Assembly: GCF_016765655.2 (NCBI RefSeq)
Contig: NZ_CP086108.1
Location: forward strand, 282,501-346,500
Direction of reading: 5' to 3'
DNA: 64,000 nt
Source of the DNA: Skermanella mucosa
GTDB taxonomy: Bacteria > Pseudomonadota > Alphaproteobacteria > Azospirillales > Azospirillaceae
Made by a program: the position numbers and the translations under genes. How positions within the stretch are numbered: position 1 is the stretch's first letter; each line of letters opens with the position of its first letter. Positions 50,657 through 64,000 of the stretch are shown piece by piece. Below the pieces are notes generated by a model that saw only the letters and a program-made list of their open reading frames with translations, had not been told where the DNA came from and ran no database searches.

Positions 50657-50747
50657 GTCGGCCTCGGCCGAAGGCCGACGCCGACGCCATGGCCGGAGCG
50701 TCGGCATGTGGTGTCGGCGTTGGCCCTGCGGGCCAAGGCCGACCTAC
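50653..50747. repeat. Inverted repeat overlapping the stop codons of two convergent genes
   Basis: GTAGGTCGGCCT (50653-50664) and AGGCCGACCTAC (50736-50747) are perfect 12-base arms about 70 bases apart; inner copies of GGCCGACGCCGAC and GTCGGCGTTGGCC add pairing. The TAG stop at 50654 and the CTA (TAG on the minus strand) at 50744 lie within the arms, so both flanking genes end in the element. It may act as a bidirectional terminator. Confidence 0.7.
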
Positions 50748-53700
50748 GAAAATTGGAATTTTTTCAATGCCTTCTCGATGCGGGGGGTGTGGCGGTCGAG
50801 GGCGGCGGCGCGGCAGGTTTTCAGGACGCGGGTGAGGTCCTGGCGCAGGTCGCAGCCGCGCTCGCCCCGGCCGAAACGGGCGAGCAGGCGGCCGCGGGTG
50901 GTGAACAGGCTGCTCCAGGGCAGCGGTTCGGGGCTGGCATAGTCCTCCAGCCCGTCGGCGTAGCGCTCGGCTGCCTCCCAGTCACCCATGTCGAGCGCCG
51001 TCTCGATCGCCTCGCGGTGGAAATAGAGGTGGTTGTGGCTGACGCTGCCCCGCGCCAGCATGGCCGCACCCTCGTCCAGCAGGCGGCGGCGCTCGTCCGG
51101 GTCGTCGCCGGCCAGGGCCATCAGCGCCAGGATGCTGGGACCGAGATATCCCTCCCCCGTGCGCAGCGCGATCTCCAGGGCCTGCCGCAGCAGGTCGAGG
51201 CTCTCCTCCCGCCGGCCGGCATGGAGCGCCATCCGGCCGAGGCCCAGCAGGTTCTCGGCCTCGAACCGCCAGGCGCCGAGCTGGGCGGCCAGGGCCTGGG
51301 CGCGGGCGAAGTGGGGGCGGCCGGCCTCCTCGTCGCCCAGCTCTCCCAGCATCTCGTTGGCGACGATATGGCTGAGCAGTTCGGCCCGCCGGTGGCCGAT
51401 CCGGACGGCGACATCGATCGACTCCCGCGCCGTGGCGAGGGCGGCGCCCGGGTCGTTCATGAAGAACCGGGTGACCGCGTCCATGTAGAGGTTTTCCGCC
51501 TCGATCCGGGGCAGCGACCGCTCGCGCGCCCGGCGGACGCAGCGGGAGAAATAGCCGTGGGCGGTGATCATCCGGCCGCGCAGGTAATAGGCGTCGCCGA
51601 GCCCGCTCATGGCATGAAGCTCAAGGTCGGGCTCGTTCGACCGCCGCGCCCAGTCCAGGGCGGCCTCGTGCTCGCGCAGGCAGCCGTCGAGGTCGCCGCG
51701 GGGGAAGCACAGGTTGCCGCGCAGGTGGTGGATGCGGAACCGCTCCGCCGCGAGGCCGGCGCGCATGGCCGCCGCCTCGGCATGCTCCAGCGCGTCCATC
51801 GCGCCGGAGAGGTCGTCCACCACGCGCATGCCCGACGCCAGCCCGAGCCAGGCGCGGCAGCGTTCCGCGTCGGTCTCCGCCAGGTCGCGGGCCTGCCCGT
51901 AGGACCGGATCGACGGGGCGACGGACCCCAGCGCGTCCAGCACCTCGCCGTGCAGGCAGGCCAGCTCGAACCGGTCGGCGCGTCCGCAGTCCAGCGCCAG
52001 GCCGCGCTCCACCAGCGACAGCGCGCGCTCGAACCTGAAGCCGGCGGCGTGGAACCGGGCGGCTTCCAGGAAGGCCGCGGCGGCCCCCGGGTCCTCCGCC
52101 TGGGCCAGGTGCTCGGCATGCAAGGCCGGGTCGCGCCCGGCGTACCACGCGGCGGCGCGGCGGTGCAGCTCGCACCGGCGGGAGCGGAGCAGGCCGGAAT
52201 GGACCGCTTCCTGGACCAGGGCATGGGCGAACAGGTAGCCGCCGCCATTTCCGCCATCGGGGGCCGCCGGGCGGACCAGCGCCTGGTCGAGCAGCGCCGC
52301 CATTCCATAGTCCGGGTCGTCCAGCAGCGTGCGCAGGGCGTCCAGGTCGAAGCGCTGGCCCAGCACCGAGGCGGCCTGGAGCGCCCGGCGGTCGGCAGCG
52401 GGCAGCGCGTCGGTGCGCGCCAGCACGATGGCGTGGATGGTATCCGGCACGGTGCCGCCGGTGCCCCGGCTGCGCAGGAGCTGTTCCAGGAACAGGGGAT
52501 TGCCGCCGGACCGGGTGACGCAGCTTTCGGCGAAGGACCGGTCGTCCGCCGCCACCGCGTGCGTCAAGGTCTGGGCCAGGCTCTGGGCCTCCGCCGGGCG
52601 GAGGGGGCCGAGGTCGATGGTCATGATCGGCACCCCGCCGGCGGCGGCCCGCCAGGCGGCGTCGAGCGGGTCGCCCTGGACCCGGGTCGTCAGCACCAGG
52701 ATCAGCGGGCAGTCGGCCACCAGCCCGGCGAGCATCGCGACGTAGGGTTGGACCTGGGCATCGGCCCAGTGGACGTCCTCGATCGTGAGGACCAGCGGCC
52801 GGTCGCCGGCCACCGCCCGGACCAGCGCCGAGATGACGGCGCGGCGGCCCAGGTCGCGGGTGCCGTGGTCCAGCGCGTCGTAGACGGAGCGCTGGTCGGG
52901 CGGCAGGGGCCGGTCGAGCAGGGGGGCGAGGTGGATCCCATGCTCCGGGCCGAGCGTGCCGGCGGCCGGCAGGTCCGCAAGCGCCCGGACAACCGCCTTG
53001 ATCGCGTCCTGGCCCCGGCCGACGCCGAAATCGAGCACGCAGCCGGTGACGCAGCGCAGTCCCTGGGCGCCGGCCAGGGCCTGGAACTCCTCCACCAGCC
53101 GGGTCTTGCCGATGCCGGGTTCGCCCCGGATATGGATCACGGTGCCGCTGCCGGTCTCGCGGCAGGCGGCGAGCAGGCCGTTGAACTGGTGCAGCTCCGC
53201 CCGCCGCCCCACGAAGGGGCGGGAGGCCGCCGCCTTGCCGGTGCCGGCCGTGCGAAGCCCCCGCAATCGCCAGGGCGGCCCGCCGCCACCCTCCAGGTCG
53301 AGGAACCCGTCCATCGCCTCCCGCACCCCGGGGGAGATCAGGATGTCGCCGGGGCCGGCCAGGGTGGCGAGCCGGTTCCCCTCCTGCATGGCGGTGCCGG
53401 TCAGCACGAAGTCCGGCCCGCCGTCCACGACGACCAGCCCGCAGGAAACGCCGATGCCGGGAGGCTCCGCGGTGCCGTCCACCCCGGCGCGCAGGTCGAG
53501 CGCCGCGCGCAGCGCCCGCTCCGGATCGTTGCCGTGGGACCGGCGCGCGCCGAACGCCGCGATCACCGTGTTGCCGGCGTGGCGGTAGAGGTCGCCGCCA
53601 TAGCTCCGGGCGATGCGCTCCACATGGCCGACCGCGTCGGCGGTCTGCCTGTGCATGTCCTCCGGATCGGCGGTATCGGACCCGGACAGGGCCGCGCAGA

Positions 53701-54526
53701 GGATGGCGGCGACGCGCAGCTCGGGGGCGGAGGGGAAGGGGCGGGGCGGCGCCTCGCCGGCTTCCGGGAGGGGTGCCGCGGCGGGGTCGGGCGGGTCGGC
53801 CCGGCTGTTGCGGCGGCGCTCCCGGATCTCCCGCAGGAGCGCTTCGGTCTCCGGTTCGGGCCGCACGCCCAGCTCGCGCTCCAGGACGGAGCGGCAGGTC
53901 TGGTACTGCTTCAGGGCGGCGGCGTGGCGGCCCTGGCGGGCATAGAGCCTCATCAGGGCGCGGTGGGCCGGTTCGCGCAGGGGATCGAGCGCCAGCAGCC
54001 GCAGCGCGTGGCGGACCCCGGCCTCGGCGTCGCCGGTTTCCAGGGCGTGGTCGAGCAGCCGGCCCAGCACGCCCTGGATCTGCTCGCGCAGGTGCCGGCG
54101 CTCGACCTGGAGCCAGTCCTCGAAGGCAGGCGACCGGGACGGGGCGCCGTCGAACAGGTCGCCGCGATAGAGCTCCGCCGCCCGCGCGAGGTGCGCGGGG
54201 GAGCCGTCGGCGACGGCCGCCCGGAATTCCGCGACGTCGGTGGCGAGGGTCCCGGCCGGGACGGCGACGCCGTCGCCCTCCGCGCTCAGGACGGGCAGGC
54301 AGCGGCGGAGCAGGGCCAGCGCCTGGCGGAGGCTGCTGCGGGCGAGGGCGTCGGGGCTGTCCTCCCACAGCAGCGTCGCGAGCTTCTCGCGCGGGTGGGA
54401 CTGGCCGGGGCGCAGGGCCAGGTACGCCAGCAGGGCCATCGGCTTGCGGGCGGTCAGGGGGATCGACGATCCGGCTGGCGATAGAAGGTCGAACCCGCCG
54501 AGAAGATTGAGGCGATGGGTGCCCAC
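50744..54526 (-). CDS. SARP-like regulator with BTAD, degenerate cyclase, AAA ATPase and TPR tail
   Basis: 1,260 residues from GTG 54526, chosen because GAGGAGG lies six bases upstream; ATG 54550 lacks one. Residues 3-100 look like a winged-helix domain and 100-240 the BTAD helical repeat (AELYRGDLFDG, VRPEPETEALL). About 270-420 resembles a class III cyclase, but the metal Asp positions read Ala279 (ILCAALSG) and Asn319 (HAGNTVIAAFG), so it is probably non-catalytic. The ATPase has Walker A GEPGIGKT at 468-475 and LTIEDVHWAD. The C-terminal half is helical repeats with EALDLARRTGE-like units. Such STAND-type regulators control secondary metabolism or stress genes. Confidence 0.83.
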   Translation of the reverse strand: MGTHRLNLLGGFDLLSPAGSSIPLTARKPMALLAYLALRPGQSHPREKLATLLWEDSPDALARSSLRQALALLRRCLPVLSAEGDGVAVPAGTLATDVAEFRAAVADGSPAHLARAAELYRGDLFDGAPSRSPAFEDWLQVERRHLREQIQGVLGRLLDHALETGDAEAGVRHALRLLALDPLREPAHRALMRLYARQGRHAAALKQYQTCRSVLERELGVRPEPETEALLREIRERRRNSRADPPDPAAAPLPEAGEAPPRPFPSAPELRVAAILCAALSGSDTADPEDMHRQTADAVGHVERIARSYGGDLYRHAGNTVIAAFGARRSHGNDPERALRAALDLRAGVDGTAEPPGIGVSCGLVVVDGGPDFVLTGTAMQEGNRLATLAGPGDILISPGVREAMDGFLDLEGGGGPPWRLRGLRTAGTGKAAASRPFVGRRAELHQFNGLLAACRETGSGTVIHIRGEPGIGKTRLVEEFQALAGAQGLRCVTGCVLDFGVGRGQDAIKAVVRALADLPAAGTLGPEHGIHLAPLLDRPLPPDQRSVYDALDHGTRDLGRRAVISALVRAVAGDRPLVLTIEDVHWADAQVQPYVAMLAGLVADCPLILVLTTRVQGDPLDAAWRAAAGGVPIMTIDLGPLRPAEAQSLAQTLTHAVAADDRSFAESCVTRSGGNPLFLEQLLRSRGTGGTVPDTIHAIVLARTDALPAADRRALQAASVLGQRFDLDALRTLLDDPDYGMAALLDQALVRPAAPDGGNGGGYLFAHALVQEAVHSGLLRSRRCELHRRAAAWYAGRDPALHAEHLAQAEDPGAAAAFLEAARFHAAGFRFERALSLVERGLALDCGRADRFELACLHGEVLDALGSVAPSIRSYGQARDLAETDAERCRAWLGLASGMRVVDDLSGAMDALEHAEAAAMRAGLAAERFRIHHLRGNLCFPRGDLDGCLREHEAALDWARRSNEPDLELHAMSGLGDAYYLRGRMITAHGYFSRCVRRARERSLPRIEAENLYMDAVTRFFMNDPGAALATARESIDVAVRIGHRRAELLSHIVANEMLGELGDEEAGRPHFARAQALAAQLGAWRFEAENLLGLGRMALHAGRREESLDLLRQALEIALRTGEGYLGPSILALMALAGDDPDERRRLLDEGAAMLARGSVSHNHLYFHREAIETALDMGDWEAAERYADGLEDYASPEPLPWSSLFTTRGRLLARFGRGERGCDLRQDLTRVLKTCRAAALDRHTPRIEKALKKFQFS

Positions 54527-54674
54527 GGGCTCCTCCTCGCGCACGATCATGAGGGACGACGATGAACGATCTTGCCACCCCGGCCCGGCGGCGACCAGGA
54601 AAAACGCCATCGGGAACCGCCCCGGCGCCCTCCTGTTGAGGTCGGTCCGAGCATCTGAACCAAGGAGTGGCCCC

Positions 54675-54872
54675 ATGGCCGAGCAGCAAGACAAGTTCCA
54701 CCGGGTCGGCGGCAACACGGACCCCAAGGCCAACCCGCCGAGCCCCGACGGCCCCGACGCCGTCCACAACCCGCCCGAGACCAACCGCGGCAACAAGCCG
54801 GGCCAGGTCTCCCAGGAAGCCGGCAAAACCGAGAAGCCCGAGCCCAGCACCGAGTCCGGCGCGCCGGGCTGA
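54675..54872 (+). CDS. Small hydrophilic, probably disordered protein (65 aa)
   Basis: ATG 54675 has AAGGAG eight bases upstream. MAEQQDKFHRVGGNTDPKAN begins a Pro/Asn/Gly-rich chain without hydrophobic segments. It is divergent from the SARP-like regulator. In size, charge and composition it recalls the 62-residue protein at 2596-2784, suggesting a family of small stress-type proteins. Unknown function. Confidence 0.6.
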   Translation: MAEQQDKFHRVGGNTDPKANPPSPDGPDAVHNPPETNRGNKPGQVSQEAGKTEKPEPSTESGAPG

Positions 54873-54897
54873 GGGGTCGCCATGGCCGGGCGTGATC

Positions 54898-55063
54898 CAT
54901 GGCCGTCCGGCACGGCAGTTCCGCCCCGCTCAAACGGTCTGCATGGCGACGGCAGCACCCTCCTTTTCGTCATACCCGGACTTGATCCGGGTATCTCCCC
55001 GCACGGCGTCGCTGATGGAGTCTGCAAGCGATGACCGGGTCAAGCCCACGGCTATCCGGCACG
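54898..55063. mobile_element. MITE-like repeat, truncated left-half copy
   Basis: Begins CCATGGCCGTCCGGCACG, a variant of the left end of the element at 55046, and includes a palindrome TACCCGGACTTGATCCGGGTA (about 54975-54995). It lacks the inverted right end and runs into the left end of the next copy, which suggests nested or tandem insertion. Confidence 0.55.
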
Positions 55064-55285
55064 GTACTTGCGGTTTTCTCAAAAGAGTTGATCAGGGGAA
55101 AAAGCACCCCCTTGTCGTCATGCCCGGACTTGATCCGGGCATCTCCGGCCACGGAGCCGTGGTGAGACCTGCGATACGATGGCCGGATCAAGTCCGGCCA
55201 TGACGAAAAGGGAATATTTCTGCCTACGGCTAATACTTTTCCTCTTTGAGCAAATACCGTGCCGGACAGCCGTGGGTCAAGCCCG
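55046..55285. mobile_element. MITE-like palindromic repeat element, copy 2 (240 bp)
   Basis: Ends CCACGGCTATCCGGCACG (55046-55063) and its complement with one mismatch (55268-55285). It contains palindromes GCCCGGACTTGATCCGGGC (about 55125-55143) and GGCCGGATCAAGTCCGGCC (about 55182-55200) in opposite orientation, as in the copy at 28984-29216. No open frame. Confidence 0.72.
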
Positions 55286-55395
55286 GTCATGACGGCAAAG
55301 GGAGGAACGCTCTGCCGAAATCCGACCATCCCCTTGCAGACCTAATCAAGCAGCCGACAAAGCCGGCGCGGACGGGGCTGAAAGAAAGGGATTTG

Positions 55396-55468
55396 GCCAC
55401 AGATGCACGCAGATGGACGCAGATAAGAAATCGATAAGTATCTGCGTCCATCTGCGTGCATCTGTGGC
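55396..55468. repeat. Perfect 30-bp inverted repeat (hairpin element 1)
   Basis: The left arm 55396-55425 starts GCCACAGATGCACGCAGATG and is perfectly complementary to 55439-55468, with a 13-base loop. The unusually long perfect stem makes a strong hairpin in DNA or RNA. The leading GGGATTTGGCCACAGAT is repeated before element 2 at 55512. Confidence 0.9.
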
Positions 55469-55519
55469 TAAGTAATGATCCCTGCCTTGGACGGTGCTGG
55501 GCCGGGAGGAAGGGATTTG

Positions 55520-55587
55520 GCCACAGATTACGGCGATATCCTCAGATGATCCGGGCCGTATCTTTGTCCATCGCCGTAATCTGTGGC
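55520..55587. repeat. Perfect 18-bp inverted repeat (hairpin element 2)
   Basis: GCCACAGATTACGGCGAT (55520-55537) and its complement (55570-55587) around 32 bases. It starts with the same GGGATTTGGCCACAGAT as element 1, so it belongs to the same family. It ends 12 bases before the stop codon of the small gene at 55599 (read on the minus strand). Confidence 0.88.
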
Positions 55588-55598
55588 AAGAGCCTGGA

Positions 55599-55826
55599 TT
55601 ACGTTTGCGCCCCTCCCGCTATCCCGGACGGCGCCCGGCGGTCGATGGTGAAACGGGCGGTTTCCGGGTCGAAGCCTCGGCGGTCCATCTCGTCCACCGC
55701 TTCGCCCAGCATGTTGACGAGGTAGACCGCATCGTCGTCGGCCAGCGGCGCGCCGTCCGCGTCGAACACGCGCATGTCCTTCAGCCCGGCGTCGAACCGG
55801 GCTTCGTACCTTCCTGCTTGTGGCAT
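55599..55826 (-). CDS. Small conserved-looking hypothetical protein (75 aa)
   Basis: Begins MPQAGRYEARFDAGLKDMRV, then FDADGAPLADDDAVYLVNML and DEMDRRGFDPETARFTIDRR. Alternating strands and one helix suggest a compact fold; Pro and Arg placements look like a genuine protein. A family is not recognised. It is transcribed away from the TIR-NB-ARC gene and shares the gap with structured element B. Confidence 0.55.
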   Translation of the reverse strand: MPQAGRYEARFDAGLKDMRVFDADGAPLADDDAVYLVNMLGEAVDEMDRRGFDPETARFTIDRRAPSGIAGGAQT

Positions 55827-55913
55827 GATGCTTACCCCCGCGCCGCCGGACTGACGACGGTGGGAGCCCCCCGCCGCGGCGAACGAGGTCGCCGCGGCGG
55901 GGGTAACAATGAC

Positions 55914-56086
55914 CGGAGCGCGAACACTCCGTTTGTGCTAATCAATTGGGTAGCCATGGATGTGGTTCCTTGATCAAGAGGCATCTATGGTCAGGCCGGG
56001 CCTAGGAGTCCCCACTCTTTGGCTCGGCCGCCACGTCCGGGTGGTGTGGCGCGCGAATTTTGATCCGAATTCGCGCGCATGTCAAA
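55914..56086 (+). ncRNA. Conserved structured intergenic element, copy B
   Basis: Order of blocks as in copy A: hairpin CGGAG/CTCCG (55914-55931), TTGTGCTA (55933), TAGCCATGGAT (55951), ATGGTCAGGCCGG (55987), inner hairpin AGGAGT-CCCC-ACTCTT, TCGGCCGCC, GTGTGGCG (56044-56051), an 11-base perfect hairpin GCGCGCGAATT/AATTCGCGCGC (56049-56078), then ATGTCAA. TTGTGCTA to ATGGTCAGG is 54 bases against 53 in copy A. Different sequence but preserved pairing in the hairpins suggests a selected RNA structure. It lies 134 bases before the TIR-NB-ARC-TPR gene. Confidence 0.5.
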
Positions 56087-56219: not shown

Positions 56220-58808
56220 ATGGAATACGATATCTTCTTCAGCTACGCCTTCGCCGACCGCGACGCGGCTCTGCCGGTGATCCAGGCGCTGCGGGCGCGA
56301 AAACTCCGCGTTTTCAGCTTCGAAACGGAGATTCAAGAAGGCGAATCCATCCAGCGCCGGATCGTGGAGGATCTTGGCCGCGCCCGGATGATGGTGGCGT
56401 GGTATTCGGCGACTTACCCGACCAGCCGCGCCTGCCAATGGGAGCTGACTTCCGCCCTCATCGCCGCCCGGCACGAGTCACCCGACGGCCAGATGGTGGA
56501 GCGCCGAATCCTGGCGCTGAACCCGGAGGAAGATGTCGGCCATCTCCAGCCGGCCGACATTCTCGTGAAGAGGTTCGTCAATGCGCGGGGTGTCCGAGCG
56601 GACGAACTGGCCGGCCGGGTCGCTGACCGGCTGGCGGGGCTGACCGGCAACTTCGGGAGAATCAAAGCCTTCAGCGGCACGCACTGGCACGGCGGCAACC
56701 CGCGTGCCGGGTCCAACCGGTTCGTCGGCCGCTTTCCGGACATGTGGCGGATCGACAGTCACCTGTCGAAGAACAGGATCGCGCTGATCGCTGGCGCCAG
56801 TCCCAGCCTGATCCAGGTGCAGGGCATGGGCGGCATCGGCAAGACCCTGCTGGCGGAGGAATACGCCCGGCGCTTCGGCGCAGCCTATCCCGGCGGCATC
56901 TTCTGGCTCAATGCCGTCAAGGGGCAGGACCTGGGCGCGCAGCGGCAGGGCATTGCCGGAAACCTCGGCATCGCGGTCGCCGGCCTGGGGCCGCACGAGG
57001 TCGAGGGTGCGCTGAAGATCAAGCTTGCTGACCTGGACAGCTACCTGTGGATCGTGGACGACTTGCCGCCGGACGCTGGCATGGCCGACCTGAACGCCTG
57101 GAGAGCACCCACCGACAACGGCGCCACCCTGGTCACCACCCGCGGCACCGGGCTGGACGGGGCGGGCTTCGTCCACCGGCTGGGGCTGCTGTCGGGTACC
57201 GAAGCCCATGAGCTTCTGACCAGCCGCCGATCTGCGCGTAGCGATGACGAGCGGGCGGCGGCGCGGGAGATCCTGGCCCTGCTGGGCAACCATGCTCTGG
57301 CGGTCGATGTGGCGGGTGCCGCCGTCGCGATGCTGGGCTATGCGGCCTTCCGCGACCGGCTGCGCGATCCGGCGAAGGACGCGACGGAACTTGCCGCCGA
57401 ACTGGCCGGCGACCTGCCGACCGGCCATGCCCGGCAGATCGCGGCCACCCTGCTGGACAGCATCGACCGGCTGGACGCGGCGGGCCTGCGCTTCCTGCAC
57501 CTCGCCGCCCTGCTGGCCCCGGCGCCCATCCCCCTGTCCCTGGCCGCCGATGTCTTCGCCCGGCAGCCCGGCGGCGACGACGGCTTGGCCGAGGCCGCCC
57601 GCGCCGTCAAGGCGGCCGCGCGCGAAGCCCTGGCCGAACACATCCCGGGTGGGGAGGAGGATGCCGGCGACGCCGTGTCGGTCCATGTGCTGGTCAGCCG
57701 CACCCTGCGCTTCCACAGGGGCGATCCGCCGCCCGCGATGCGCGACGCCGCCGTGGCGGCGTTGAACGAGTCGATGGAGGAGGCCGGCGACATCCGCAAC
57801 CATGCCGCCTTACTGCCCCTGGTCCCCCACGCCCGCGCCCTGACCGGGGACCTGCCGGACGTCCCTACAGCCACGCTCCTGTCGTGGCTTGGACGGCTCA
57901 ATAATGAGCGGGGAGCCTACGCCGACGCGGAGGCGGACTACCGCCGAACAGTCGAGGCCAGGAAACGCCTGCTGGGCGCCGAGCATCCCGACACCCTGAC
58001 CAGCATGAACAATCTGGCCGAAACGCTCCGGGCACAGGGCGACCACGGCGGCGCCCGGACGTTCCAGGAGCAGGTGCTGGCGCTCCGCCGCCGGGTGCAG
58101 GGCGACGAGCATCCCCACACCCTGACCAGCATGAACAATCTGGCCGTAACGCTCGATGCACAGGGCGACCACGGCGGCGCCCGGGCGCTCCACGAGCAAG
58201 AACTGGCCATCTGCCGCCGGGTGCAGGGTGACGAGCATCCCGACACCCTGGCCAGCATGAACAATCTGGCCCTGACGCTCCAGGCACAGGGTGATCACGG
58301 CGGCGCCCGGGCGCTCCACGAGCAGGAATTGGCGCTCAGCCGCCGGGTGCTGGGCGAAGAGCATCCCGACACCCTGGCCAGCATGAACAATCTGGCCACA
58401 ACGCTCCGGGTACAGGGCGACCACGGCGGCGCCCGGGCGCTCCAGGAACAGGTGCTGGCGCTCTGCCGTCGGGTGCTGGGCGACGAGCATCCCAACACCC
58501 TGACCAGCATGAACAATCTGGCCCATACGCTCTGGGCACAGGGCGACCACGGCGGCGCCCGGGCGCTCGAAGAGCAGGTGCTGGCGCTCCGCCGCCGGGT
58601 GCTGGGCGACGAGCATCCCGACACATTGCTCAGCATGAACAATCTGGCCGAAACGCTCCGGACACAGGGCGAAGCTGACCGAGCAATGGCGCTGGTGGCC
58701 GAGGCATTGCCCATCGCACTGCGGAAATATGGTCCCGAGCCCGAAGTTTCGCAGTGTTTGATCGCCAGGGCCAAGCATCTCGGCCTGCCGATCCCGCCCC
58801 TGCCGTAG
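56220..58808 (+). CDS. TIR-NB-ARC-TPR STAND protein (bacterial NLR-like)
   Basis: 862 residues. The TIR domain (1-140) starts YDIFFSYAFADRDAAL; ATYPTSRACQWEL carries Glu75 at the position of the NADase catalytic Glu. The NB-ARC ATPase (about 165-400) has Walker A GMGGIGKT (202-209), Walker B YLWIVDD (275-281), ATLVTTR sensor (302-308) and LGNHALAVDVAGA as the GLPL-like motif. A winged-helix-like region follows (about 410-580), then six TPR units of 42 residues (about 585-820). Such proteins sense invaders through repeats and kill or arrest cells by cleaving NAD. A TATAAT lies at 56148-56153. No neighbouring defence gene, but accessory repeats surround it. Confidence 0.9.
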   Translation: MEYDIFFSYAFADRDAALPVIQALRARKLRVFSFETEIQEGESIQRRIVEDLGRARMMVAWYSATYPTSRACQWELTSALIAARHESPDGQMVERRILALNPEEDVGHLQPADILVKRFVNARGVRADELAGRVADRLAGLTGNFGRIKAFSGTHWHGGNPRAGSNRFVGRFPDMWRIDSHLSKNRIALIAGASPSLIQVQGMGGIGKTLLAEEYARRFGAAYPGGIFWLNAVKGQDLGAQRQGIAGNLGIAVAGLGPHEVEGALKIKLADLDSYLWIVDDLPPDAGMADLNAWRAPTDNGATLVTTRGTGLDGAGFVHRLGLLSGTEAHELLTSRRSARSDDERAAAREILALLGNHALAVDVAGAAVAMLGYAAFRDRLRDPAKDATELAAELAGDLPTGHARQIAATLLDSIDRLDAAGLRFLHLAALLAPAPIPLSLAADVFARQPGGDDGLAEAARAVKAAAREALAEHIPGGEEDAGDAVSVHVLVSRTLRFHRGDPPPAMRDAAVAALNESMEEAGDIRNHAALLPLVPHARALTGDLPDVPTATLLSWLGRLNNERGAYADAEADYRRTVEARKRLLGAEHPDTLTSMNNLAETLRAQGDHGGARTFQEQVLALRRRVQGDEHPHTLTSMNNLAVTLDAQGDHGGARALHEQELAICRRVQGDEHPDTLASMNNLALTLQAQGDHGGARALHEQELALSRRVLGEEHPDTLASMNNLATTLRVQGDHGGARALQEQVLALCRRVLGDEHPNTLTSMNNLAHTLWAQGDHGGARALEEQVLALRRRVLGDEHPDTLLSMNNLAETLRTQGEADRAMALVAEALPIALRKYGPEPEVSQCLIARAKHLGLPIPPLP
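57981..58680 (+). repeat. 126-bp tandem coding repeats (TPR array)
   Basis: The string ATGAACAATCTGG recurs exactly every 126 bases at 58005, 58131, 58257, 58383, 58509 and 58635. Each unit encodes EHPDTLTSMNNLAETL-like and GDHGGARALQEQVLALRRRV-like halves of a kinesin-light-chain type TPR. Sequence identity between units is very high, so the array is a recent expansion. Confidence 0.93.
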
Positions 58809-61438: not shown

Positions 61439-64000
61439 TCATTGAACGATTTGGGCTTTGCCGGCGGAGCGGGCCTGCCGCAGGGCTTCCTTCTGCTCCG
61501 GCGTCATGGCGAGCAGGCGGAGATAGGCCTGGGCCACCTTCAGCGCGCGGCCGGGCGATGCCTCCCGCGACCGCAGCAAGGCGGCCTGGGCGGCGACGGT
61601 CGGCGCCTCCAGGAACTCGCGCAGGCGCAGCTCGGTCTGGAACACCCGGCCAAGCTTGGCGTGGATCCGCATGGCGACCAGGGAATGGCCGCCGAGGTCG
61701 AAGAAATCTTCCTCGACGCCGATCTCCCCGCCGCCGAACGCCTCGGCCCACAGGCGGGCGACGGCGTCCTCCACCGGGTCGCGGGGCGCCAGCCGGGTGG
61801 CGGTCACCTCGACGGGGGCCTGGGCCAGGGCCTTGCGGTCGATCTTGCGGTTGGGCGTCAGCGGCAGCTCGGGCAGGATGCGCCAGACCGTCGGCACCAT
61901 GTAGCCGGGCAGGCGGGCGAGCGACCGCTCGCGCAGGTCGGCGACGGCCAGTTCGGGGGCGGGTTCGGGCGCGCCGTCCTGCGGGACGAGGTTGGCGACG
62001 AGGCGCGGTTCGCCCTGGCCGTCGCGGCCGATCACGACCACCGCCTCGGCGATGCCGGGCAGGGTGCGCAGGACGCTCTCGATCTCGCCCAGCTCGATGC
62101 GGAACCCGCGGATCTTGGCCTGGGTGTCGAGCCGGCCGAGGATGTCGAAATCGCCGTCCGGCCGCCGCACCGCCCGGTCGCCGGTCAGGTAGCAGCGGGC
62201 GCCGGGCAATCCGGGGAAGCGGTTGGGCGCGAAGCGGTCGGCCGTCAGGTCGGGGCGTTCCCAATAGCCCTCGGCGAGGCCGTCGCCGCCGATCGCCAGC
62301 TCACCCGGCGCATCGACCGGGGCGGGGCGGCCGAAGGCGTCGACCACGCCGATCCAGGTGTTGCGCACCGGCGCGCCGACCACGCCGGCCTGAGCCGCGT
62401 CGTCGATCCGGCGGGCGGCCGACCAGATCGTCGTCTCGGTCGGGCCATAGACGTTCCACAGCGCGACGCCGCGGTCCAGCAGGGCCGCCGCCAGGTCGGC
62501 GGGAACCGCCTCCCCCCCGACCCAGCCGGCGAAGCCCTGCGGCGGGCGCCAGTCGGCGGCGAGCAGCAGGCGCCAGGTGGCGGGTGTGGCCTGGAGCACG
62601 GTGGCGCCCCGGGACGCGATCAGCTCCGCGAGCGCTGCGCCGTCCACGGCGGTGGCGCCGCCGCACAGCACCAGCGTGGCGCCGGCGGCCAGCGGCAGGA
62701 ACAGTTCCAGCGCCGCGATGTCGAACGACAGGGTGGTGACCGCCGCCAGCCGGTCGTCGCGGCCGAAGCCGGGCCGGTCCGCGAAGCTGTCCACCACGTT
62801 GGCGAGCGCGCGGCGGCCGACCGCGACGCCCTTGGGCCGCCCGGTCGAGCCGGAGGTGAAGATGACATAGGCCAGCCGGTCGCCCTCGCGCGGGTCGGGG
62901 GGGACGGGCGCGTCGGGGCCGGCCAGCAGGTCCTCCACCGTCAGCACGGGGGCGGCGGTGGGCGGGGCGTCGGCGCGCAGGGCGCGGGAGGCGACGACGG
63001 CGGCGGGGCGGCCGTCCTCCACCATCATCGCCAGCCGTTCCGCCGGGAACGCGGGGTCGAGCGGGATATAGGCGGCCCCCGCCAGATGCACGCCCAGGAG
63101 GGCCGGCAGCAGGTCGGCGCCCCGGTCCAGGAAGATGCCGACGCGGTCGTCCGGGCGGATGCCCGCCGCGGCGAGGCCGGACGCCACGCGCCGGGCACGC
63201 TCGGCCAGCTCGCCATAGGTCAGGGTCGCGTCCTCGGCGATCACGGCGAAGCGGCCGGGTTCGGCCTCGGCATGGTCCAGGATGCGGCGGTGGACGGGGA
63301 GCCCGACCGGGCCGGCGGTGCCGGTGGCGGCGGGGCTCGGTGCTGCCGGCAGCAGGTCGGCGATCCGCTCCCGCGCGGGGTCGCCAAGGGCTTCGAGCAG
63401 GGCCGCCAGCTCGGCCAGGAGCGCGCCGGCGGCGCCCTCGTCCAGCCGGGCGCGGTCCCACATCAGTTCCAGCCTCAGGCCGTCGCCGGGGAGGGTCCCG
63501 GGAAGGACGTAGAGGCTGAGCGGGAAATTGTTCTGTTCCCGCGCCGTGACCGCGCCGACCGCGAGGCCGGCGGAGGCGCGGACCTCGGACGCGACGGGGT
63601 AGTTCTCATAGACCAGGATCGCCTCGAACAGCGGCTGCTGGCGGGGGCGCCCGCTCCAAGACTGGATATCCACCAGCCGGCTGTCCTGGTGGGCCGCCAG
63701 ATCGCCGAAGCCGGCCTGGAACGCCGGCAGCCAGTCGGCGAGATTCGCCGCCGGGTCGAGCACGGCCCGCACCGGCAGCGTGTTGATGAACATGCCGACC
63801 ATGCCGTCGGAACCGTCGAGGTCCTGCGGCCGGCCCGACACCGTGACGCCGTAGAGCACGTCGAGCGTGCCGCCGTAGCGGCCGAGCAGCACCGCCCAGG
63901 CGGCGTTGACCAGCGTGCTCTGGGTGACGCCGTGGCGCCGGGCTGATTCGGCGAGGCGGGCGGCCGGGGCCGGGGGCAGGTCGAGGCTGCGCATCGCCAT
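61439..64000 (-). CDS. Non-ribosomal peptide synthetase, C-terminal module (C-A-PCP), 5' part outside window
   Basis: 853 codons in the window. The frame continues past the window edge, and the N-terminal part of the condensation domain with HHxxxDG is missing. VNAAWAVLLGRY and VSGRPQDLDG are C-domain motifs. The adenylation domain has FTSGSTGRPKGV (A3), YGPTETT (A5) and RIELGEIESVL (A8); the PCP has GGHSLVAM with the phosphopantetheine Ser. After it, only about 60 residues follow and no thioesterase. Pocket residues read D-I-L-Q-W-G-V-I-W (by alignment to GrsA, with A10 Lys), close to the published glycine pattern; tentative. Confidence 0.88.
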   Translation of the reverse strand: MAMRSLDLPPAPAARLAESARRHGVTQSTLVNAAWAVLLGRYGGTLDVLYGVTVSGRPQDLDGSDGMVGMFINTLPVRAVLDPAANLADWLPAFQAGFGDLAAHQDSRLVDIQSWSGRPRQQPLFEAILVYENYPVASEVRASAGLAVGAVTAREQNNFPLSLYVLPGTLPGDGLRLELMWDRARLDEGAAGALLAELAALLEALGDPARERIADLLPAAPSPAATGTAGPVGLPVHRRILDHAEAEPGRFAVIAEDATLTYGELAERARRVASGLAAAGIRPDDRVGIFLDRGADLLPALLGVHLAGAAYIPLDPAFPAERLAMMVEDGRPAAVVASRALRADAPPTAAPVLTVEDLLAGPDAPVPPDPREGDRLAYVIFTSGSTGRPKGVAVGRRALANVVDSFADRPGFGRDDRLAAVTTLSFDIAALELFLPLAAGATLVLCGGATAVDGAALAELIASRGATVLQATPATWRLLLAADWRPPQGFAGWVGGEAVPADLAAALLDRGVALWNVYGPTETTIWSAARRIDDAAQAGVVGAPVRNTWIGVVDAFGRPAPVDAPGELAIGGDGLAEGYWERPDLTADRFAPNRFPGLPGARCYLTGDRAVRRPDGDFDILGRLDTQAKIRGFRIELGEIESVLRTLPGIAEAVVVIGRDGQGEPRLVANLVPQDGAPEPAPELAVADLRERSLARLPGYMVPTVWRILPELPLTPNRKIDRKALAQAPVEVTATRLAPRDPVEDAVARLWAEAFGGGEIGVEEDFFDLGGHSLVAMRIHAKLGRVFQTELRLREFLEAPTVAAQAALLRSREASPGRALKVAQAYLRLLAMTPEQKEALRQARSAGKAQIVQ

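Follow-up and report, generated by a model that had tools for sequence, protein, structure and literature searches.

The gene examined here lies on a 64,000-nucleotide stretch of Skermanella mucosa DNA (assembly GCF_016765655.2, contig NZ_CP086108.1, positions 282,501 to 346,500), referred to as the window, and consists of a single open reading frame (ORF) whose 862-residue product carries a TIR domain, an NB-ARC ATPase and an array of tetratricopeptide repeats (TPR), in the order that defines the TIR-NB-TPR architecture (Table 1). Searches with Pfam matched TIR_2 to residues 5-87 (E 3.4e-12) and TPR_10 and TPR_12 to a kinesin-light-chain-type array of 42-residue units (E 2.6e-87 and 2.2e-78); NB-ARC was matched at E 4.3e-5 and 23.3 bits with the full protein (cut-off 23.5) and at 24.3 bits, slightly above the cut-off, with the 585-residue core alone. 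Both TIR_2 and NB-ARC were matched in all of the family cores scanned (15/15). No leucine-rich repeat (LRR) was found among the 17 Pfam families listed for the protein, the C-terminus of which is formed by the TPR array. The strong profile matches and the homologues in several genomes rule out a chance or artefactual ORF, and the sequence supports identification of the product as a bacterial TIR-NB-TPR protein resembling nucleotide-binding leucine-rich repeat receptors (NLRs).

Table 1. Features of the window gene, its surroundings and its copies
Feature	Position	Strand	Remark
TIR-NB-ARC-TPR gene, 862 aa	56220..58808	+	single ORF and Pfam matches
TIR domain, residues 1-140, predicted NADase effector	56220..56639	+	
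Codon of Glu75 (GAG), predicted catalytic Glu	56442..56444	+	context ACQWELT; invariant; aligned with Roq1 residue 86
NB-ARC ATPase, residues 189-364	56784..57311	+	Pfam NB-ARC in 15/15 members; profile matches Roq1, AfsR, Apaf-1, NRC1
Walker A GMGGIGKT, residues 202-209	56823..56846	+	G202, G204, G205, G207, K208 invariant
Walker B LWIVDD, residues 276-281	57045..57062	+	D280, D281 invariant
TTR motif, residues 306-308	57135..57143	+	T306-T307-R308 invariant
MHD-like position, VHV with His489	57681..57689	+	H489 invariant
Six 42-aa TPR units, residues 588-839	57981..58736	+	five canonical, then a diverged capping unit
Conserved intergenic element with GC-rich hairpins	55840..56085	+	lies between the 75-aa ORF and the TIR gene
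41-aa leader-like ORF (STNGVxALRSLLPPPRRP)	55832..55957	-	just upstream of the 75-aa ORF
Divergent 75-aa ORF	55599..55826	-	conserved beside several family members
Three-gene operon	L041:2965-11245 and L049:7216-15367		
Other intact copies	C1:1257k, C1:6280k, C1:489k		intact, as is the window gene
Broken copy	C3:423k		

An initial annotation, made by a model from the letters of the sequence, had described a TIR domain, Walker A, Walker B, a TTR motif and a TPR array in one protein, and the ORF was found to be as described, with these motifs invariant in a 15-member alignment. Together with a histidine at the MHD position they are the marks of an NB-ARC/AP-ATPase of the signal transduction ATPases with numerous domains (STAND); VHV with His489 is presumed, by position, to be the MHD motif. 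The glutamate which that annotation had expected for NAD cleavage, Glu75, is likewise present, W74-E75 being invariant in the core alignment and Glu75 invariant in 16/16 members in one alignment and 15/15 in that of the cores. Comparison of the core profile to structure aligned it with Glu86 of Roq1, the catalytic glutamate of that protein, and with both a TIR fold and a conserved glutamate at the catalytic position, NADase activity is predicted. A profile search of residues 1-400 had been proposed as a check, and the search of the core recovered both TIR_2 and NB-ARC. The copy number, the diversifying TPR array and the conserved upstream unit described below go beyond that annotation.

When a profile of 15 family cores was compared to solved structures, the best match was Roq1 (E 5e-16), with both TIR and NB-ARC aligned, followed by AfsR, Cat1, bacterial TIRs including AbTir, and Apaf-1. 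Structural alignments of the full predicted model covered mainly the TPR region, residues 588-839 of which gave 10-residue means of 85-95 for the predicted local distance difference test, and the core was folded and searched separately, with RPP1 as its first Foldseek match.

The genome (7.84 Mb, 5 contigs) was found to carry five copies of the family, four of them intact. The contig of the window gene measures 434,629 bp, and this gene shares 77-80% identity with the other three intact copies over the segments that match. At 1e-20 the core query matched 9 of 82 genomes of the order, comprising 4/5 in Skermanella and 5/45 (45 being a count of rows) in a second genus, g11, which was taken as Azospirillum because A. 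lipoferum 4B carries a homologue (46.5% identical) on a plasmid, one typed as conjugative. Across the phylum, the core was found in one of 398 sampled genomes, that of S. mucosa itself. Both surveys may miss members, since up to 3 candidates per genome were scored across the phylum (where three own-genome copies were recovered) and up to 17 in the order. A full-length query matched 20 of 59 relatives, outside Skermanella mostly through TPR units alone, and two distant relatives with 42-43% identity were found in a Candidatus Brocadia assembly and a Methanosarcinales assembly. This patchy presence indicates that the gene is accessory, as had been proposed, and not a conserved core locus. Mobility had also been proposed, and for the family it is supported by an operon copy that is cleanly present or absent (described below) and by the homologue on the conjugative Azospirillum plasmid; for the window locus the claim does not carry over, since the left flank there and that of the relative compared (L103, genome G003) do not align.

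Units of the array share a near-identical 42-residue scaffold and differ in number, with one (L050) to six found per intact gene in Skermanella and up to seven in Azospirillum genes. Among 30 of 37 Skermanella units, from seven genes (seven units were dropped, six as diverged capping units and one as a false register match), variation was concentrated at unit positions 4, 7, 14, 17, 29 and 36, with entropies of 1.8-2.3 bits, position 42 being the next most variable (1.5). With an offset of 5, obtained by aligning the QGD..A motif to the canonical TPR, positions 7, 14 and 17 correspond to canonical 2, 9 and 12. Canonical positions 2, 5, 9, 12, 13, 33 and 34 are listed as the most variable and concave across TPRs (PMC1261162), which would place three of the six variable positions (7, 14, 17) in the groove, with 4, 29 and 36 absent from the list. 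The six positions were also more variable in the arrays Azo_A (p 0.00015; 2 of its 16 units dropped before counting), L049 (p 0.004) and Azo_B (p 0.037), and in Azo_C their higher variability was not significant (p 0.08). The same was found in control TPR arrays from L015, L016, L017 and L018, which are non-family by sequence and may include NLRs, their N-termini lying outside the scan (L034 is the same gene as L017). The variable positions are therefore a general TPR property, not one special to the family, and it is an excess of amino-acid change that singles out the Skermanella genes.

This excess was seen as a ratio of nonsynonymous to synonymous differences (pN/pS) of 2.49 at these positions (1.94-3.53 when units were bootstrapped; leave-one-gene-out 2.16-3.34), against 0.42 at the other 36 (pN 0.056, pS 0.133). 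The figures cover seven intact Skermanella genes, the two genes of genome G004 and two broken copies being left out and L049 examined apart; among the same seven genes, dN/dS was 0.40 for TIR and 0.37 for NB-ARC. Choosing the six positions on the data under test inflates pN, so the test was repeated with independently chosen sets, giving 3.14 at the canonical concave positions and 2.94 at the top six positions of the Azospirillum arrays, with 0.57 outside either. The four control arrays gave 0.65-1.36. Hypermutation driven by a diversity-generating retroelement (DGR) was considered and rejected, given that 21 of 124 changes at the six positions started from a consensus A where A makes up 22% of bases, no genome-wide DGR search having been made. 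A reverse transcriptase adjoins the copy at L042 (RVT_1 match and many reverse-transcriptase-type PADLOC matches), and no relatives of it were found among the called neighbours of other loci.

Copies occupying the same site in two species were compared with units paired in order. The six variable residues were 27% identical between L040 and L047 and 25% between L042 and L046, against 84% and 80% for the scaffold; whole receptors were 85-86% and 78-79% identical, and matched flanking proteins 95-99% and 94-97%, the exception being the 75-aa ORF that adjoins L042 and L046 (88%). For three Azospirillum copies at one site, the variable residues were 30-40% identical versus 75-84% for the scaffold, and no identical 126-nt units were found among the units compared. 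Identity between L041 and L042 was found to shift along the gene, from 0.74 in the TIR to 0.91 in the middle and 0.74 in the last part before the TPRs, the corresponding values for the window gene and L045 being 0.74, 0.78 and 0.92. Operon copies L041 (S. mucosa) and L049 (G004) have the same downstream genes and one flank in common, and their TIR-NB cores cluster in the tree with other copies of their own lineages and not together (support 100/99 for the G004 pair and for the group of seven genes from G000, G001 and G002). Gene conversion among paralogues would be the simplest reading of these identity jumps and of the grouping by lineage.

At L041 and L049 the gene heads three overlapping genes, the others encoding proteins of 815/808 and 971/953 residues, and among the L041 partners SIR2_2 and AAA_23/SMC_N were matched with Pfam. 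Two NAD-consuming enzymes (TIR and SIR2-like) possibly stand together in this operon, the GC content of which at third codon positions (0.68-0.76) is below that of most of its neighbours. At L096 (G001), 55 bp replaces the 8.4-kb operon block between continuing flanks (positions 2919 and 11350 of L041 versus 8096 and 8152 of L096). The suggestion that the gene acts as a stand-alone sensor-effector thus fits the window locus and not these two copies, which lead an operon with SIR2-like and SMC/AAA-like proteins. That there are no adjacent defence genes agrees with the neighbours scanned, with the qualification that the conserved 75-aa and 41-aa leader ORFs lie directly upstream.

The 75-aa ORF was also found at L042, L046, L048, L049 and L050, and at L041 it carries an in-frame stop. 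At L095 and L096 it occurs with no TIR gene next to it, and tblastn did not find it near L040, L047, L045 or the broken L043, which weakens it as an obligate partner. Of 11 loci scanned, 9 have a related leader ORF, which is truncated in L050 and has diverged in L045. The 75-aa ORF, leader ORF and hairpins (window 55599-56085) form a unit that recurs in the genus with or without an adjacent TIR gene. As a known RNA the upstream element was rejected, having no Rfam match at E up to 1, with five listed hits falling on upstream palindromic repeats. Folding of one strand is stronger than in 200 shuffled versions (z -5.3), and the consensus fold has 61 pairs; a structured RNA is not established, because only 5 of these pairs have changes on both sides and the conserved leader ORF lies on the minus strand. 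Further upstream (54959-55594) are dense intergenic palindromic repeats of the CATGCCCGGACTTGATCCGGGCAT and CACAGATGCACGCAGATGGACGCAGAT types, the latter being also found upstream of copies L040 and L047.

Next to the gene, on the minus strand (50744-55027), is a 1427-aa ORF with BTAD, AAA_16 and TPR_12 matches that resembles a STAND-type regulator. On its other side (61439-64000, minus strand) a nonribosomal peptide synthetase (NRPS) with condensation, adenylation and carrier domains continues past the end of the window and measures 2151 aa in L044; short-chain dehydrogenase/reductase (SDR) and sugar transferase genes lie nearby. Other arrangements were seen in g11. The relative at L070 (6442-10512) is a 1356-aa ORF in which a putative MinD/ParA-like stretch (KGGTGRS) stands before the TIR-NB-TPR part, and a patatin-like gene is nearby. 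At L069 (4908-7181) a patatin phospholipase with a TPR-S sensor domain adjoins the TIR-NB-TPR gene; L066 and L068 carry different genes at that site, which looks like a variable defence spot.

Among known systems, the plant TIR-NLRs (TNLs) Roq1 and RPP1 share the order of TIR then NB-ARC and the aligned glutamate, and gave the best profile and first Foldseek matches, but they carry an LRR where the window protein, from a bacterium, has a TPR array, and the whole-chain TM-score to RPP1 is only about 0.25. The three-part architecture itself is that of the bacterial and plant TIR-NB-TPR proteins (TNPs), which are already on record from bacteria (PMC9806590), as the initial annotation had stated; according to that paper, it is in the NB domain that plant TNPs resemble bacterial proteins, and repeat diversification is not described for them in the part of that source available. 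Fungal NB-ARC-TPR NLRs (Podospora) have PF13374-type TPRs, varying repeat numbers and near-identical units with hypervariable concave positions under positive selection (PMC4986451). Their structures 4y6c/4y6w match the TPR model of the window protein; however, their effector domains are different, and alleles of wild isolates were compared there, whereas paralogues and species are compared here. Near-identical units, varying unit number and excess amino-acid change at groove positions, which characterize the fungal type, were all found in Skermanella, with the groove placement following from TPR numbering, pN/pS being descriptive, and pooled Azospirillum copies being without excess.

The TIR-AP-ATPase-TPR proteins described in actinobacterial FxSxx-COOH systems (PMC7159879) also unite the three domains in one protein, but those systems come with peptide-processing genes, none of which were seen among the window neighbours scanned. 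Membership was rejected, as the score with NF040586 (291.4 bits) is below the curated cut-off of 300. With Avs and bacterial NACHT antiviral STANDs the protein shares a STAND switch, a C-terminal sensor and an N-terminal effector (PMC10907252, PMC9806590); it differs in its NB-ARC clade and TIR effector, and no Avs model was among its PADLOC matches, which were four in number and weak (E up to 0.1), the best being to the candidate model PDC-S66 (E 2.1e-6).

The family thus combines these domains and motifs, its copy number and its patchy distribution with a few positions per unit showing excess change within a conserved scaffold, TIR and NB-ARC. Judged from sequence, it probably represents a bacterial TIR-type NLR (STAND) receptor that senses a fast-changing non-self protein. 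The groove of the kinesin-light-chain-type TPR superhelix would bind a non-self protein or peptide, possibly from a phage; binding would free the ADP-bound NB-ARC switch, leading to ATP exchange and oligomerisation, upon which the clustered N-terminal TIR domains would cleave NAD+ via Glu75. This would stop or kill the cell, an abortive-infection outcome. That a few sensor residues per repeat change much faster than the remainder is what a receptor engaged in an arms race would be expected to show.

Several observations weigh against this receptor reading. The NB-ARC match of the window protein is divergent and near threshold, which corrects the earlier description of a full NB-ARC. The predicted model has low confidence around residues 160-220, and the whole-chain TM-scores of about 0.25 apply to Apaf-1 as well as RPP1. 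The PADLOC search (four matches, E up to 0.1) recognised no established system, Avs included. The variability could also stem from repeat turnover and a relaxed constraint on TPR positions at the surface, with no selection for recognition. Such positions are the most variable across TPRs (PMC1261162) and are more variable in the control arrays too, where pN/pS is about 1. The three pooled Azospirillum family arrays gave 0.86-0.99 at variable positions, and taken singly L066 was high (0.46/0.04) with L067, L068 and L069 at 0.78-1.05. Pairs of the 30 units are also non-independent, which makes the Skermanella ratios descriptive. Relaxed constraint nevertheless predicts a ratio near 1, and the Skermanella values stay well above it both in the leave-one-gene-out range and, at about 3, with independently chosen positions; we therefore give this explanation little credence.

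A search of 50,697 phage records and a conserved-peptide scan of viral contigs turned up no homologue of the receptor. This counts against the main reading and would suit an NLR for kin or self-recognition (allorecognition), as in fungal heterokaryon incompatibility, in which the groove would recognise a polymorphic protein from competitors or related strains and not from phage. The closest evolutionary parallel comes from fungi, whose NB-ARC-TPR proteins have nearly identical TPR units under positive selection at concave positions (PMC4986451), and several paralogues with differing variable residues are kept per genome. However, no polymorphic partner locus was identified, none having been searched for, and those bacterial TPR-sensor STANDs that were tested are reported to sense phage proteins (PMC9806590, PMC10907252), leaving allorecognition an unlikely, though the least unlikely, alternative. 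A signalling or regulatory TIR-STAND ATPase with an endogenous ligand and no defence role, for example one tied to the adjoining secondary-metabolite genes, would accord with the NRPS, SDR, sugar transferase and BTAD-type regulator of the window, with the profile match to AfsR and with the near-cut-off FxSxx-COOH score. Yet apart from the 75-aa ORF, the window neighbours have no clear relative beside other copies (two matches of 24-27% only), and a fixed endogenous ligand would not lead one to expect a few sensor positions with excess amino-acid change, which makes such a role improbable in our estimation.

As a more tentative proposal, which we hold to be possible but not the likelier case, bacteria may keep a small multi-copy repertoire of TIR-NLRs that diversifies like fungal NLRs. 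Interchange among paralogues would homogenise the core and scaffold, selection would renew a few ligand-contact residues in each repeat, and each copy would read a different, fast-changing non-self epitope with no need of a DGR-type mutator. What is new is not the architecture, which bacteria were known to have, but a fungal-type diversification within a bacterial family of TIR-NLRs, and no report of repeat diversification in a bacterial TIR-NB-TPR family was found in the titles and abstract openings of open-licence PubMed Central literature, among the matches listed. Plants are the best-known source of TIR-NLRs, and fungi of NLRs with diversified repeats; this family joins a plant-type TIR-NB core with fungal-type TPRs. 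It constitutes a candidate defence gene family unrecognised as an established system by PADLOC-DB, the sole defence library searched, and would make a tractable system, with sensor specificity perhaps readable from a handful of residues per repeat.
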